From: Methanocalculus alkaliphilus
GTDB lineage: Archaea > Halobacteriota > Methanomicrobia > Methanomicrobiales > Methanocorpusculaceae
Direction of reading: 5' to 3'
Assembly: GCF_024170505.1 (NCBI RefSeq)
Contig: NZ_JALJYG010000006.1
Location: forward strand, 62,001 to 126,000
Length of the DNA stretch: 64,000 nt
Shown here: positions 1,610-20,075 of the stretch, piece by piece
Position numbering within the stretch: the stretch's first letter is position 1
How the letters are laid out: each line of letters opens with the position of its first letter
The notes under the pieces: model-generated
Database searches by the model: none
What the model was told of the DNA's origin: nothing
What the model saw: the letters and a program-made list of their open reading frames with translations, nothing else
Translations under genes and position numbers: made by a program

Positions 1610-2281
1610 TGAGGAATCAACCCCGATGGTGATCACCTCGCAGATGTCGTGCCAGTTGACGATCGTCTCAACACACCCGTCCTTCACGGTTACAACACCC
1701 ATCCCGACGAGCCCGATCCGGTTGCACATCTCAAGCCCTTCCTTCACTTCCATCAGGCAGCCGACACCAACGATCGCTTTTGGGCGATACTTCTGCACCA
1801 TTCTTTTGATAAATGTCGATCCCGGTATGATGAAGACCCGGTAGCCAAGATCCTCCATCTTTGGGATTGCAGTACCTAGATCACACCGTCGGCAGCCGAC
1901 ACATGCAAGCCCTTCCGGGGTGAGATGAGCGGGGCATTGTGCGGAGCGAAGGCATTGTGGTAGAAAGACGGCCCGCTCAGACACCGGTATCGCAGAGAAC
2001 GCACTTGTATTCATTCTGTTATCAAGTCTGATCAGAAACTTCAGGAGCTCTCCCGGCTCAATCCCCACAAAGGCACAGAGACCCTTGACGAACCCCTCCA
2101 TCAGGAAAAGGAATGGCCGGAGGAGGGCGGGGAAGATGACCTTCCCGGATCGGATCGATGTGCCGATTAAAACAACCATGAGGATCGCAATTCCAAAGAG
2201 GAAGAGAATGACGAAGAGGGTCACCTCTCCAAGGAGGATCATCAGGTTCTGCAAAGTCGGATCCGTAAAGATCATAGTCAT
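1574..2281 (-). CDS. DUF116 family membrane-anchored Cys-rich protein
   Basis: A 235-residue protein with one strong N-terminal membrane segment (about residues 15-42) and a cytosolic domain typical of DUF116. That domain has the cysteine pattern LPQCLRSAQCP, then GLACVGCRRCDLG, then GVGCLMEVKEGLEMC. The spacing suggests a metal or Fe-S site, which is an inference. DUF116 proteins are common in methanogens and have no assigned reaction. The gene ends inside the convergent bactofilin-like gene and has its own start near 2281, 35 bp after the MtnA stop, so it may be transcribed separately from the mtnA operon. Confidence 0.75.
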   Translation of the reverse strand: MTMIFTDPTLQNLMILLGEVTLFVILFLFGIAILMVVLIGTSIRSGKVIFPALLRPFLFLMEGFVKGLCAFVGIEPGELLKFLIRLDNRMNTSAFSAIPVSERAVFLPQCLRSAQCPAHLTPEGLACVGCRRCDLGTAIPKMEDLGYRVFIIPGSTFIKRMVQKYRPKAIVGVGCLMEVKEGLEMCNRIGLVGMGVVTVKDGCVETIVNWHDICEVITIGVDSSSIPDDFDVPSN

Positions 2282-2316
2282 CTAGTATATACCATTGACA
2301 CCTTTATCCCCTTGCT

Positions 2317-3339
2317 TCAGGGCAGAAGCCAGGGGTGGTCAGCTGGACTGGTTATGATCCCCTCCTCGGTGATGATACCGGAGACGAGATCAAACGGGGT
2401 TGCATCAAATGCATAATTACGAACAGGCACACCATCTGGAACGGTTCTGACGCCGGAAAATGAAGCTATCTCATCACGCCCCCGTTCCTCAACGACAACC
2501 TCACCAACAGTCTGTGATGGATCAAAGGTGGACTTCGGTGCAGCGACATAAAACGGAATCTGGTGGTATCGCGCAGTGACCGCATGCATATAGGTACCGA
2601 TCTTATTGAAGATCCCGTCGCGGCAGATCCGGTCGGCACCCACAATAACAAGATCTATCTCCCCTTTCTGCATCAGGCAGGCGGCTTCAGAGTCGATGAT
2701 CGTCGTCACCGGTATGGCGTCCCTGGCAAGCTCCCAAGCCGTCAGCCGCGATCCCTGGAGGAGGGGGCGTGTCTCGCATGAGATGACGCTGACATCCTTC
2801 CCATCAGCCACAGCCGATCGAATCACGCCAAGGGCAGTGCCCCATGCCGAACAGGCGAGGGCACCGGCATTGCAATGGGTCAGTACCGTGGCACCATCCG
2901 GGATGATCTCTGCGCCATGCGATCCGATTCGCCTGCAGACAGCTTCGTCCTCATCAGCGAGGGCCTCTGCCAGGCTACGTGCCAGTTCTGCCGCCGCAAC
3001 CGGTTCATCCTCCTCCATGACGGCTGCGAGGACCTGATCCACACCCCATGCCAGATTCACCGCAGTCGGCCGGGCAGACCGGAGAGCTCCCGCATCCTTC
3101 TGAACAGACTGACGGAAGGTGTCAGGACTCTCCTGCAGTGCTCTCCTGCATGCGAGGGCAACACCATACGCTCCGGCCACTCCGAGCGCAGGCGCACCCC
3201 TGACCTCAAGCCTCTGTATCGCCTCGACCAGCCTGGGGACGGTTGCACAGACGATATGCTCATACCGGCCTGGGAGGAGTGTCTGGTCGATAAGGCCAAT
3301 GCCCCCTTCCTCCCACCAGATCGTCCGCTCCTGCATCAC
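2317..3339 (-). CDS. mtnA: S-methyl-5-thioribose-1-phosphate isomerase family protein
   Basis: A 340-residue member of the eIF2B-alpha/MtnA isomerase family. It shows RLEVRGAPALGVAGAYG near residues 45-61, TVLTHCNAGALACSAWGTALG with the catalytic-type Cys near 155-175, and the Asp-containing DLVIVGADRICRDG near 230-243. The enzyme interconverts methylthioribose-1-phosphate and methylthioribulose-1-phosphate in methylthioadenosine salvage. In archaea the same fold can act on related 5-deoxyribose-1-phosphates, so the substrate is not fixed by sequence. It is the last gene of an operon: its start overlaps the stop of the HdrA-like gene by 4 nt (ATGA type). Confidence 0.88.
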   Translation of the reverse strand: MMQERTIWWEEGGIGLIDQTLLPGRYEHIVCATVPRLVEAIQRLEVRGAPALGVAGAYGVALACRRALQESPDTFRQSVQKDAGALRSARPTAVNLAWGVDQVLAAVMEEDEPVAAAELARSLAEALADEDEAVCRRIGSHGAEIIPDGATVLTHCNAGALACSAWGTALGVIRSAVADGKDVSVISCETRPLLQGSRLTAWELARDAIPVTTIIDSEAACLMQKGEIDLVIVGADRICRDGIFNKIGTYMHAVTARYHQIPFYVAAPKSTFDPSQTVGEVVVEERGRDEIASFSGVRTVPDGVPVRNYAFDATPFDLVSGIITEEGIITSPADHPWLLP

Positions 3340-4613
3340 TCACCAGTCGTCAGGGTATCGCGGGTAGCTCTCATTGCCGCAGCACCCGCCGTCATCACCG
3401 AATCCGGTATATCACGTGGGGCGGTGACCGTGCCTGCGACATAGATCCCCGGCCGGATAGTCCCGACGGGATCGAGCTTTTGGTCGGTTGTGTTCACAAA
3501 ACCGTTCTGATCAAGAGGGATACCGAGCTGCTCCATAATCGCCTGTGTATCCGGCTCAGCTTCCATCCCGGCTGAGAGGACGACCATATCTGCATGGAGG
3601 CTGATGAACTCGCCGGTCTCCGTATCCTCAAGGGGCAGGATGAGATCATTGTCGCCTGCGATCACCTCTCCCGGGAAGGCACGGAGTAGTCGGATTCCGG
3701 CCGCCTCGGCACGGACACAATACTCCTCATATCCTTTTCCATAGGCACGGATATCGTTGTAAAGGATAGTTACCTCGATTTCGGGGTGATGTTCACGGAT
3801 GAGCATCGCATTCTTCAGTGCGTACATGCAGCAGACGCTTGAGCAGTAGCTCTTGCCAATCTGCATATCACGTGATCCGACACACTGGACGAAGACGACG
3901 GAGCGTGGTACTGCACCATCCGAGAGTCTCCGCACCTCTCCCCCGGTTGGTCCGCTCGAATTGATCAGGCGTTCAAATTCAAGGCTTGTGATGACATCCG
4001 GATACCTGAGGTATCCAAACATCTCCTTGCGCCTGGCATCGAAGAGCTGATAGCCGGTGGCGATGATGACACTCGCCGCCTCGATCACCTCCGTCTTCTC
4101 CGTGTCCTCACGGAGAACTGCTTCACGGCCGCAGATATCATAGCAGAGACCGCATTCTATGCAGTGCTCTGAATCCCGGACGACGACGTTTGGCACAACC
4201 TGGGGGTGCGGCTTGTAGATTGCCTTGCGGACACCGACACCTGCATCAAACCGGTTATACACCTCGACGGGGCAGATATCGACGCAGTCCTCACACCCGG
4301 TACAGAGATTTGTCTCAACGTACCGTGGGTGCTGCCGGACAGTTACGCGGAAGTCGCCGACCTCACCCTCGATACTGGTCACCTCTGCAAGTGTTCTGAT
4401 GGTGATAAGAGGATGACGCTGCACATCAACCATCTTCGGTGAGAGGATGCACATCGAACAGTCGTTTGTCGGGAAGGTCTTGTCGAGCTGTGCCATGTGG
4501 CCGCCGATACTGGGTTCCCGTTCGATCAGTGTTACCGGGATATGATGGTTGGCGACATCGAGTGCCGCCTGGATCCCTGCCACACCTCCGCCGATGACAA
4601 CAACCCTACGCAT
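3336..4613 (-). CDS. Short HdrA-like FAD/iron-sulfur protein
   Basis: This 425-residue protein has the central part of heterodisulfide reductase subunit A. It contains a Rossmann FAD motif VVVIGGGVAGIQAALD at the extreme N-terminus, the HdrA signature CSMCILSPKMVDVQRHP, two 4Fe-4S motifs (CTGCEDCVDICP and CIECGLCYDIC), and SYCSSVCCMYALKNAMLIRE. Canonical HdrA is about 650 residues. Here the N-terminal extension and the C-terminal ferredoxin-like pair are missing, and no HdrB, HdrC or hydrogenase gene is nearby. It probably transfers electrons by flavin and two clusters, but the partner is unknown. It overlaps gamma carbonic anhydrase upstream (8 nt) and mtnA downstream (4 nt). Confidence 0.85.
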   Translation of the reverse strand: MRRVVVIGGGVAGIQAALDVANHHIPVTLIEREPSIGGHMAQLDKTFPTNDCSMCILSPKMVDVQRHPLITIRTLAEVTSIEGEVGDFRVTVRQHPRYVETNLCTGCEDCVDICPVEVYNRFDAGVGVRKAIYKPHPQVVPNVVVRDSEHCIECGLCYDICGREAVLREDTEKTEVIEAASVIIATGYQLFDARRKEMFGYLRYPDVITSLEFERLINSSGPTGGEVRRLSDGAVPRSVVFVQCVGSRDMQIGKSYCSSVCCMYALKNAMLIREHHPEIEVTILYNDIRAYGKGYEEYCVRAEAAGIRLLRAFPGEVIAGDNDLILPLEDTETGEFISLHADMVVLSAGMEAEPDTQAIMEQLGIPLDQNGFVNTTDQKLDPVGTIRPGIYVAGTVTAPRDIPDSVMTAGAAAMRATRDTLTTGE

Positions 4614-11864: not shown

Positions 11865-11880
11865 ACGGGATCTTTCCCGT
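11865..11880 (+). promoter_or_regulatory. Hairpin in the 5' leader of the L15e mRNA
   Basis: A perfect 6-bp stem ACGGGA / TCCCGT encloses the tetraloop tctt, 40 nt before the L15e ATG. A TATA-like cctttatctg at 11831-11840 would place the transcript start near 11860, so the hairpin would sit at the very 5' end of the superoperon mRNA. A role in stability or ribosomal-protein feedback is only a possibility. Confidence 0.4.
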
Positions 11881-11919
11881 AAAGGAATGTGGCTCATACG
11901 AGCTGAACCTGGAGCAACT

Positions 11920-17991: not shown

Positions 17992-19548
17992 TCAGGGTGT
18001 CTCCCCGGACCACCGGAGGAGATTGATTGCATTGATCATCGCCTCTGCGGATGCAAGGACGATGTCATCGCCTGATGAGCTCGCATCGAAGGTTCTTCCC
18101 TGCTGATCCTCAACGGTGATCGTGACATGGCCGATGGCATCGGTTCCACCGCTGATCGCCTCGATCCGGAAATCCTTGAGTGAGATGGCGATCGGCATCA
18201 CCCCGAGGACTGCACGGACCGCGGCATCAACCGGACCATTGCCGGTGGCGCTGGCGGTCTTCTCGACCCCGCCGACGATTGCGCGGACACTCGCTGTCGG
18301 GATGCAGTGGTTCCCGCTCATGATGGAGATGTCACGCAGCTCGATCGTCTTTGCGATTGCCTGAATATCCATGATATCCTCAGCGATCGTGTAGAGATCA
18401 TGATCGGTGACCCGGCGGCCACGGGATGATATCGCCTTGATCCTCTCAACGATCTCATCCAGCTGCCGATCAGACGGCGTGATATGGACGAGGGAGAGCA
18501 TCTGCCTTACGGCATGCCTGCCGACATGCTTGCCGAGGGCGAGGCGGCGGCGGTGGCCGACCATCTCGGGTGTCATAATCCCAGGCTCGAAGGTCTGGCT
18601 GTTTGCCATGATGCCATGGGAATGGATGCCTGATTCATGGGCAAAGGCGTTATCTCCGACGACCGGCTGGATCGGGGTGATCGGAATCCCGGAGTACCTG
18701 GAGACGACTCGCGAGGTCTCAACAAGCCTCGTCGTCTCGATACCGGTACTGATCCCGTGAATCGCCTCGAGGATCATGACGGTCTGAGCGATATCGGCAT
18801 TCCCGGCCCGTTCACCGATCCCATTGACCGTCACCTGCACCTGGGAGGCGCCCGCCTCGACGGCGGTTGTCGTATTGGCAACGGCGAGACCGAAGTCATT
18901 GTGACAGTGAACATCAATCGGGATGGTTATCTCCCGGGAGATGGCCATGATCAGCTCCCCAATCTTCATCGGGGTGGAGACACCGACGGTATCGGGGATA
19001 TTGACGACTGTTGCACCGGCTTCTTCTGCTACCTTCAGTACCTCGATCAGGTACGGGAGATCGGTCCGGGTTGCATCCATCGCAGAGAACATGCAGGATC
19101 CGAGGTGATCGCGGACATATCCGACGATCTCACCGGTCATCTGGAGGACTTCCTCGCGGCTCTTCTTGATGGTATTCTCTCTCTGGATATCCGATGTCGG
19201 AATGAAGACATGGACCATATCGACGCCGCAGTCAAGGCAGGTATCGACATCATCGATCCGTGATCGTGATAACCCACAGACTTTCGCAGCAAGGTCCTCA
19301 GAGGCGATCCGGGTGACCGTCTCCTTCTCCTGTGCTGAGGATGCAGGGAATCCGGCTTCGATGGTATCCACACCGATCTCTGAGAGGAGGCGTGCGATAT
19401 CCAGTTTCTGTTCAATGGTGAATGATACACCTGGTGTCTGCTCACCATCCCTGAGGGTGGTGTCAAAAACAGTTACTCTCTCTGGGCGTTTGCGATCAAC
19501 AAAGAAAGCAATTCCCCACGGAAGTATTTGCCTGAGGCATACTGACAT
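17992..19548 (-). CDS. leuA: 2-isopropylmalate synthase
   Basis: A 518-residue Claisen-condensing enzyme of the HMGL-like TIM-barrel family. It has VFDTTLRDGEQTPGVSFT near residue 26, the metal-binding HCHNDFGLAVANT, and GERAGNADIAQTVMILE. A C-terminal regulatory dimer domain (from about residue 390) is present, which excludes the shorter homocitrate synthase AksA. Length equals that of methanogen LeuA; citramalate synthase CimA remains the main alternative. The ATG at 19548 gives about 20 residues before the conserved core. No other leucine gene adjoins it; ilvD lies at 47.6 kb. Confidence 0.82.
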   Translation of the reverse strand: MSVCLRQILPWGIAFFVDRKRPERVTVFDTTLRDGEQTPGVSFTIEQKLDIARLLSEIGVDTIEAGFPASSAQEKETVTRIASEDLAAKVCGLSRSRIDDVDTCLDCGVDMVHVFIPTSDIQRENTIKKSREEVLQMTGEIVGYVRDHLGSCMFSAMDATRTDLPYLIEVLKVAEEAGATVVNIPDTVGVSTPMKIGELIMAISREITIPIDVHCHNDFGLAVANTTTAVEAGASQVQVTVNGIGERAGNADIAQTVMILEAIHGISTGIETTRLVETSRVVSRYSGIPITPIQPVVGDNAFAHESGIHSHGIMANSQTFEPGIMTPEMVGHRRRLALGKHVGRHAVRQMLSLVHITPSDRQLDEIVERIKAISSRGRRVTDHDLYTIAEDIMDIQAIAKTIELRDISIMSGNHCIPTASVRAIVGGVEKTASATGNGPVDAAVRAVLGVMPIAISLKDFRIEAISGGTDAIGHVTITVEDQQGRTFDASSSGDDIVLASAEAMINAINLLRWSGETP

Positions 19549-19700
19549 ATTGGGTAGTATTGATGATAAAACGTTCTATGGCAGCAGGGGTCGGGGTGTG
19601 CATCGTGTGCGGAGGGATTTCTGATGAGGGTATTGTATCGCAAGGGGAATATCACACCTCCTGGAAACGAGGATGCAGATTATCGGTAGCGGAGTGTACA

Positions 19701-19709
19701 TTTTATATT
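19701..19709 (+). promoter_or_regulatory. TATA box for the small RNA at 19731
   Basis: The tract ttttatatt sits in an AT-rich stretch and is centred about 26 nt before the first base of the structured segment at 19731. That is the standard archaeal TATA-to-start distance. No plus-strand coding gene follows, so the promoter would serve only the small RNA. Confidence 0.55.
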
Positions 19710-19730
19710 GATAGAAATATTATTACTTGT

Positions 19731-19811
19731 CGTGGGTAAGTCCTTTCCGAAACGGATGAGGCCACCGTGAGGTGGGTGGGACAAAGTAGGAGAGGGGCCA
19801 CTTCTTTTTTA
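19731..19811 (+). ncRNA. Candidate structured small RNA with own promoter and terminator
   Basis: About 75 nt with nested pairing: an outer GTGG (19732-19735) with CCAC (19798-19801), an inner GTCC (19740-19743) with GGAC (19779-19782), and inside them two hairpins. The hairpins are CCG-AAA-CGG (19747-19755) and CCACC-GTGA-GGTGG (19762-19775), the latter a 5-bp stem with a GNRA tetraloop. A T-run (19805-19810) follows at once, and a TATA box lies 26 nt upstream. No plus-strand gene follows, so a riboswitch is unlikely. I do not recognise the family; it lacks clear C/D boxes. Confidence 0.6.
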
Positions 19812-19873
19812 ATAGGCGTTATATTATGTAAAGCATCATTGTTTCTTTCAATGAGATGCTTAAAAGAAGAAGA

Positions 19874-19946
19874 CGCCCAGATCGGAATTCGAATCCGAGT
19901 CGATGCCGTGACAGGGCATCATGATAGGCCACTACACTATCTGGGC
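19874..19946 (-). tRNA. tRNA-Asp (GTC)
   Basis: The complement folds into a standard cloverleaf. The acceptor arm GCCCAGA pairs with TCTGGGC, the anticodon stem ATGCC/GGCAT encloses CTGTCAC with anticodon GTC, and the T loop carries GGATTCGAATTCC. The discriminator is G, as expected for tRNA-Asp. It is 22 bp downstream of tRNA-Tyr on the same strand and is probably co-transcribed; a T-rich stretch follows its 3' end. Confidence 0.96.
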
Positions 19947-19968
19947 ACGTTGTTTTTTCTGTTACTGG

Positions 19969-20075
19969 TCCCGCCTCCCGGAGTCGAACCGGGGACATCG
20001 CGGTAGCCGCGCAGTTCGCCCGCAGGCGATGATCTTACTACAGCCGCGCACTCTACCAGTCTGAGTTAAGGCGGG
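19969..20075 (-). tRNA. tRNA-Tyr (GTA) with a 33-nt intron
   Basis: The complement gives acceptor arms CCCGCCT/AGGCGGG with discriminator A, anticodon stem CGCGG/CCGCG and anticodon GTA. The 107-nt gene is about 33 nt too long; the extra stretch at 20005-20037 lies after position 37, the canonical archaeal intron site, and can pair with the anticodon arm as a bulge-helix-bulge for the splicing endonuclease. A TATA-like GTTTATATG on the minus strand lies near 20104-20113, about 30 nt upstream. Confidence 0.93.

Follow-up and report, generated by a model that had tools for sequence, protein, structure and literature searches.

A solo DUF3800-X RNA beside tRNA-Asp in Methanocalculus alkaliphilus and the possible role of its family

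Locus and identity of the RNA gene

The window (the whole stretch of 64,000 nucleotides of Methanocalculus alkaliphilus DNA that was analysed) contains at 19701-19811 on the + strand a TATA-like box, a compact RNA and a U tract in succession, as is evident on inspection of the sequence. The RNA gene is intergenic, with a 2-isopropylmalate-synthase-like gene on one side, tRNA-Asp on the other and no plus-strand gene. An earlier sequence-only reading had reported the TATA box, the fold, the T6 run and this intergenic placement without a plus-strand gene, and, one helix of the fold apart, all of these are present as it described them. The features of the locus are:

17992-19548, - strand: 2-isopropylmalate-synthase-like (leuA-like) gene, with HMGL-like and LeuA_dimer domain matches
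19585-19852, no strand: about 270 bp of extra DNA, including the RNA, missing in five congeners
19701-19710, + strand: TATA-like box TTTTATATTG, an archaeal TATA box about 25 nt 5' of the RNA start (sequence)
19730-19803, + strand: DUF3800-X RNA (RF02984), solo copy, 74 nt (Rfam covariance match)
19730-19735, + strand: 5' strand of P1, partner 19798-19803 (Rfam alignment, covariation)
19741-19748, + strand: 5' strand of P2, partner 19789-19796 (Rfam alignment, covariation)
19749-19761, + strand: 5' side of the internal loop, GAAANGGAUGA (columns invariant or nearly so)
19762-19775, + strand: P3 hairpin, CCACC-GUGA-GGUGG (Rfam alignment, covariation)
19776-19788, + strand: 3' side of the internal loop, GGGACNAAGUA (columns invariant or nearly so)
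19789-19796, + strand: 3' strand of P2 (Rfam alignment, covariation)
19798-19803, + strand: 3' strand of P1 (Rfam alignment, covariation)
19805-19810, + strand: U6 tract, likely transcription terminator (sequence; T runs enriched in relatives), spanned by CTTTTTTAA at 19804-19812
19872-19947, - strand: tRNA-Asp, 3' end towards the RNA (ARAGORN)

A small open frame 5' of the RNA (19578-19727) has no homologues among 60 relatives. Beside tRNA-Asp, at 19970-20075 (-), there is what looks by eye like a tRNA-Tyr(GTA) whose anticodon is followed by an intron, missed by ARAGORN and Rfam, and elsewhere in the window, at 11866-11914 (+), Rfam detects an eL15-Euryarchaeota ribosomal protein leader (RF03144, 43.7 bits).

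The RNA matches RF02984, DUF3800-X, over positions 1-73 of the 73-position Rfam model, with a score of 77.5 bits against a gathering cut-off of 38.2 and an E-value of 1.6e-15, and its membership in this already catalogued family of methanogenic archaea is near certain. Our own covariance model, R1, assigns 90.6 bits to the window copy, which is itself one of the 21 sequences used to build R1. The family was reportedly first described in 2017, in a paper on “224 candidate structured RNAs”, and the genome studied here has a single copy. The sequence-only reading was therefore wrong to call the RNA family unrecognised, a match in Rfam being the outcome that it had itself named as counting against it; its view that the RNA is neither a tRNA nor a C/D box RNA holds, with a tRNA identity rejected because ARAGORN and Rfam (RF00005) call the flanking tRNAs only. 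The RNA gene is real, and its interest lies in its context rather than in any novelty of the RNA.

The conserved fold consists of the helices P1, P2 and P3 arranged around a large, almost invariant internal loop, and it was modelled on 21 copies and then extended to 78. In the 78-copy alignment, which was fitted to the model and so favours the structure, 92.4% of cells are paired, 15 of the 19 pairs show changes on both sides, and the covariation score is 0.284, compared with 0.144 for shuffled (0/500) and no more than 0.091 for slid partners; the outcome is unchanged with the MAFFT alignment A1. Covariation in relatives, which had been proposed as a check, is thus present in the 78 related copies. 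The folding energy of the window RNA is unremarkable (MFE z-score merely -0.62, with 43 of 200 shuffles equally good), so that energy alone would have missed it, and this is what could be said for a chance fold in AT-rich intergenic DNA, an explanation that is practically out of the question in view of the 77.5-bit covariance score and the covariation across the order.

The individual helices predicted earlier fared differently. The hairpin at 19762-19775 stands, and the compensatory changes sought in it were found, since P3 has both-sides changes at five of five pairs, with 98% of cells paired; its loop is GNRA in the window copy and UUGA, CUGA or others in relatives. The helix 19740-19743/19779-19782, in which compensatory changes had likewise been sought, is probably not a conserved helix, because none occurs among 21 sequences, and one of the two outer helices originally drawn is thereby lost: the true outer helices are P1 (19730-19735/19798-19803) and P2 (19741-19748/19789-19796). 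In the Rfam alignment the two outermost P1 pairs of the window copy are unformed and all other pairs of P1, P2 and P3 are formed. Two of its pairs have, by inspection, changed on both sides relative to the consensus, G19735-C19798 in P1 (consensus A-U) and U19746-A19791 in P2 (consensus C-G).

The transcription signals are shared by relatives. Sequences upstream of 61 copies become sharply AT-rich (75-95% AT) from -30 to -23, after a stretch rich in A from -34 to -32, the pattern expected of an archaeal TATA/BRE, and T runs of at least four occur in 30 of 61 downstream 20-mers, compared with about 8% of background windows. Together with the family covariation, the AT box and T runs in the 61 relatives bear out the proposal of a structured small RNA that stands alone, equipped with a promoter and a terminator of its own. 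The spacing of the TATA box places the transcription start near RNA position 1, and this start, combined with a U tract directly after P1, leaves no guide-sized segment at either end; a guide-RNA reading was rejected because the anatomy from promoter to U tract has no space for a guide.

Origin of the solo copy

No match to DUF3800 (PF12686) was found in the whole genome from which the window comes, and the window copy is a solo DUF3800-X RNA. The order leuA-tRNA-Asp is conserved among congeners, and the segment of about 270 bp that includes the RNA is absent from five of them (G006, G005, G004, G002 and G001); in G006 the flanks join at the equivalent of 19584|19853. In the nearest relative, G003, this site is occupied by an insert of about 1.6 kb of unrelated DNA, and it is perhaps an integration hotspot. 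The G003 insert (L075 = G003:C8:67500-72500, ~1990-3620) contains two small ORFs (150 and 161 aa), neither of which matches Pfam.

The closest relatives of the window RNA are congeneric RNAs linked to an ATPase gene, and the similarity is confined to the RNA and does not extend to the flanks. At the tRNA-Leu(CAA) site where those congeners keep the RNA and the ATPase, the window's genome has an ATPase fragment and no RNA. From the empty sites in congeners and this fragment it would appear that the RNA was gained at, or moved to, tRNA-Asp in the window's lineage. A phage or plasmid origin of the insert was set aside, as it has no match in collections of either kind, and inspection by eye disclosed no clear terminal repeats or target duplication. 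In five cellular loci (L163, L161, L162, L136 and L034), three of them from one genus, the RNA lies at most 250 nt from a tRNA gene whose 3' end points towards it, which suggests that tRNA 3' ends serve as insertion sites.

Partner genes and copies without them

Across the order the family is patchy: DUF3800-X RNA occurs in 61 of 232 genomes and a DUF3800 gene in 40, with both present in 34, the RNA alone in 27, DUF3800 alone in 6 and neither in 165 (Fisher p 3.6e-18, computed over related genomes that are non-independent). Among the 67 RNAs above the cut-off, 33 have a downstream DUF3800 match, convergent in every case, and 34 have none; conversely, 25 of the 30 full-length DUF3800 genes are paired with a convergent RNA. 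The DUF3800 stop codon falls between -3 and +9 nt from the last base of the RNA in 19 of the 24 loci with an intact gene; the end of the coding sequence, with its stop codon and Lys-rich C-terminal codons, reaches into the RNA terminator. RNA and DUF3800 protein distances are correlated (Mantel r 0.69, 0 of 5000 permutations), a correlation which shared descent alone can explain. One contig carrying the RNA, L049 (DIFE01000074.1), comes from a “Deltaproteobacteria” MAG and resembles the Methanoregulaceae loci L029 and L035; it is probably a mis-binned archaeal contig.

Structure prediction gives the DUF3800 product an RNase HII fold: its AF2 model (pLDDT 85) matches RNase HII at E 3.5e-5, and the protein has invariant acidic residues at D5, E6, D127, D166 and D177. 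An RNase H fold for DUF3800 and an association with ncRNAs have been reported (PMC10910872), and some CRISPR loci are accompanied by DUF3800 nucleases (PMC12669027); no function for any DUF3800-associated RNA was found in the literature searched.

In three loci from Methanothrix/Methanocellales (L028, L038 and L040) the DUF3800 frame runs antisense through the entire RNA, which imposes a conserved C-terminal extension on the protein. Such frames, and the overlap of stop codons and Lys-rich codons with the terminator, are what would be seen if the RNA gene acted solely in cis, as a convergent terminator or an antisense regulator of the neighbouring mRNA. This is very improbable, because solo copies without a convergent gene, in the window and in viruses, keep the fold, which is unexpected for an element that acts in cis only.

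Solo copies are also retained in cells. In Methanoculleus, four loci in which no DUF3800 domain can be recognised, and which have their upstream gene in common, carry RNAs that are 97.7% identical, while identity in the flanks is 59% over the 60 nt upstream, 40% over the next 90 nt and 49% downstream. If these loci are orthologous and the loss of the gene is old enough, the RNA would have been under purifying selection without its gene.

Solo RNAs above the gathering score occur in three IMG/VR records. In L051 the RNA lies 20 nt 5' of a putative small-terminase gene, which is followed by the large terminase; in L164 two RNAs lie between the large terminase and the portal, with tRNAs interspersed; and in L165 (46.6 kb, with primase, Cas4-type exonuclease and helicase genes) a single RNA has tRNA genes on its flanks. 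Contig L157, binned with genome G139, has proteins in common with L165. No DUF3800 match was found in these three records, of which at least L051 and L164 are fragments. The viral P2 stems have diverged in sequence yet still pair (CCAGACC/GGUCUGG in L051, for example), from which it follows that the RNAs are maintained in viruses, and they are not especially near any cellular copy. Further viral pattern scans gave no real contig beyond these three. A candidate from Peptococcaceae, L050, was rejected as a chance pattern match whose letters do not continue the family consensus. Two matches, L164:9464-9563 (-) and L155:1977-2077 (-), exceed the usual 74 nt by about 26 nt; in the former the additional nucleotides surround the P3 hairpin, and the P3 arm may carry insertions in some viruses.

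These solo copies bear on the possibility that the DUF3800 nuclease uses the RNA as an active cofactor or as a scaffold for its substrate, within an RNP effector or selfish element, and that copies standing alone are relics or pieces of a mobile element. The predicted nuclease fold, the tight pairing of RNA and DUF3800, the patchy presence in 61 of 232 genomes, the insertions at varied sites among congeners, some of which have the site empty, and the tRNAs that flank some sites are all consistent with it. Relics ought to decay, however, and the Methanoculleus RNAs are nearly identical amid diverged flanks, while the window copy retains two pairs compensated on both sides; the family has no guide-sized variable segment, and the window insert has no terminal repeats or target duplication visible by eye. 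We regard this explanation as unlikely, though a credible competitor.

Other genes occupy the place of DUF3800 at some loci. Three Methanocalculus genomes, G002, G004 and G005, have a DUF234 ATPase gene (PF01637+PF03008) next after the RNA; this gene is broken in G004 and intact in the other two, where its stop codon lies within the 3' end of the RNA; the ATPase matches the PADLOC candidate defence family PDC-S27 at E 7.9e-42. A PemK-like toxin gene (L135) ends 7 nt from the RNA and a GNAT gene (L158) 6 nt from it, and RloB-like, SocA-like, AAA_21 and NYN genes lie near other solo copies; as partners, these single-case neighbours, PemK and GNAT included, are suggestive only. The PemK tail, FDDQFKGP, is similar to the DUF3800 C-terminus, FDYFKGPQK, which suggests that the PemK gene replaced a DUF3800 gene.

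That DUF3800, ATPase, PemK-like and GNAT genes all end 3-9 nt from the RNA end, that 34 of 67 copies are without a downstream DUF3800 match, and that viral copies lie among tRNA genes would fit an RNA with a cellular or viral role of its own, as a trans-acting regulator or in a tRNA-related capacity, at whose 3' end these genes have merely settled. Such a role is distinctly unlikely: the patchy distribution is unlike that of a housekeeping RNA, the pairing of 25 of 30 DUF3800 genes and the co-variation of RNA and protein indicate a functional pair, and the DUF3800-like tail of the L135 PemK suggests replacement of DUF3800.

Proposed function and comparison with known systems

The reading we tentatively prefer, with less than even confidence, is that DUF3800-X is an antitoxin-like RNA that restrains the DUF3800 nuclease, with solo copies protecting cells or serving as viral decoys. 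The RNA would be the inhibitory partner of the nuclease in a defence or abortive-infection module and would use the invariant internal loop to bind the enzyme directly; in Methanocalculus the DUF3800 partner would have been swapped for the DUF234 ATPase. A cell that retains the RNA after losing the protein gene would still be shielded from incoming or free nuclease, and in viruses the RNA may be a decoy by which the host module is disarmed. The window copy would then be a retained or captured protector beside tRNA-Asp.

It is the solo standing of the RNA, here and in viruses, that hints at restraint of the enzyme. Also pointing to it are the Rfam membership, the genome co-occurrence, the convergent pairing, the stop-codon spacing and the RNA-protein distance correlation, together with the RNase HII-like fold, the conserved solo RNAs, the viral solo copies, the PDC-S27 match and the lack of space for a guide; published precedents are the AbiF RNA antitoxin (PMC12373285) and the phage-borne pseudo-ToxI RNA (PMC3475682). 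Against restraint, the window's genome lacks DUF3800 and retains just a remnant of the ATPase at another site, so that it contains nothing known for the RNA to neutralise; the RNA is single and convergent, unlike the co-directional tandem repeats of type III antitoxins; the viral copies are few and not especially close to cellular RNAs; and direct binding sits uneasily with one RNA serving two proteins that are unrelated.

A broader proposal, doubtful as a whole, is that DUF3800-X and DUF3800 form an RNA-restrained archaeal nuclease defence module with interchangeable effectors (the RNase HII-like DUF3800 or the DUF234 ATPase), in which cellular solo RNAs would be selected immunity RNAs and the copies in tRNA arrays and late operons of methanogen viruses counter-defence decoys. 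The pattern of a convergent RNase HII-like partner, selection on the RNA after loss of the protein, partner exchange and viral solo copies gives a testable hypothesis of RNA-nuclease defence and counter-defence in methanogenic archaea in place of a “domain of unknown function plus RNA”.

Compared with RF02984 at large, the window copy is alike in length, in P1, P2 and P3 and in the internal-loop motifs, and scores twice the gathering threshold; it differs in having no DUF3800 gene, either adjacent or genome-wide, and in its position between a leuA-like gene and tRNA-Asp. With the guide RNAs of OMEGA/TnpB-type systems the family shares the arrangement of an ncRNA that overlaps the 3' end of a gene for a nuclease of RNase H-like fold, whereas DUF3800-X lies on the opposite strand and has no variable guide segment. 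Type III antitoxin RNAs are tandem repeats located upstream of, and co-directional with, the toxin, and DUF3800-X shows none of this arrangement. The proposed logic resembles that of type III ToxIN and pseudo-ToxI (PMC3475682), with an RNA-nuclease pair and RNA-only copies in viruses, but the DUF3800-X RNA is single and convergent, without a repeat array, and its nuclease is RNase HII-like rather than ToxN. In the abortive infection system of AbiF and its RCd22 RNA, an RNA antitoxin that neutralises AbiF by binding it directly, both in cis and in trans (PMC12373285), the two likewise combine a structured ncRNA with an adjacent defence protein, toxic in the case of AbiF and a predicted nuclease in that of DUF3800; the proteins and RNAs are unrelated, and direct binding, published for AbiF, is a proposed feature of DUF3800-X.
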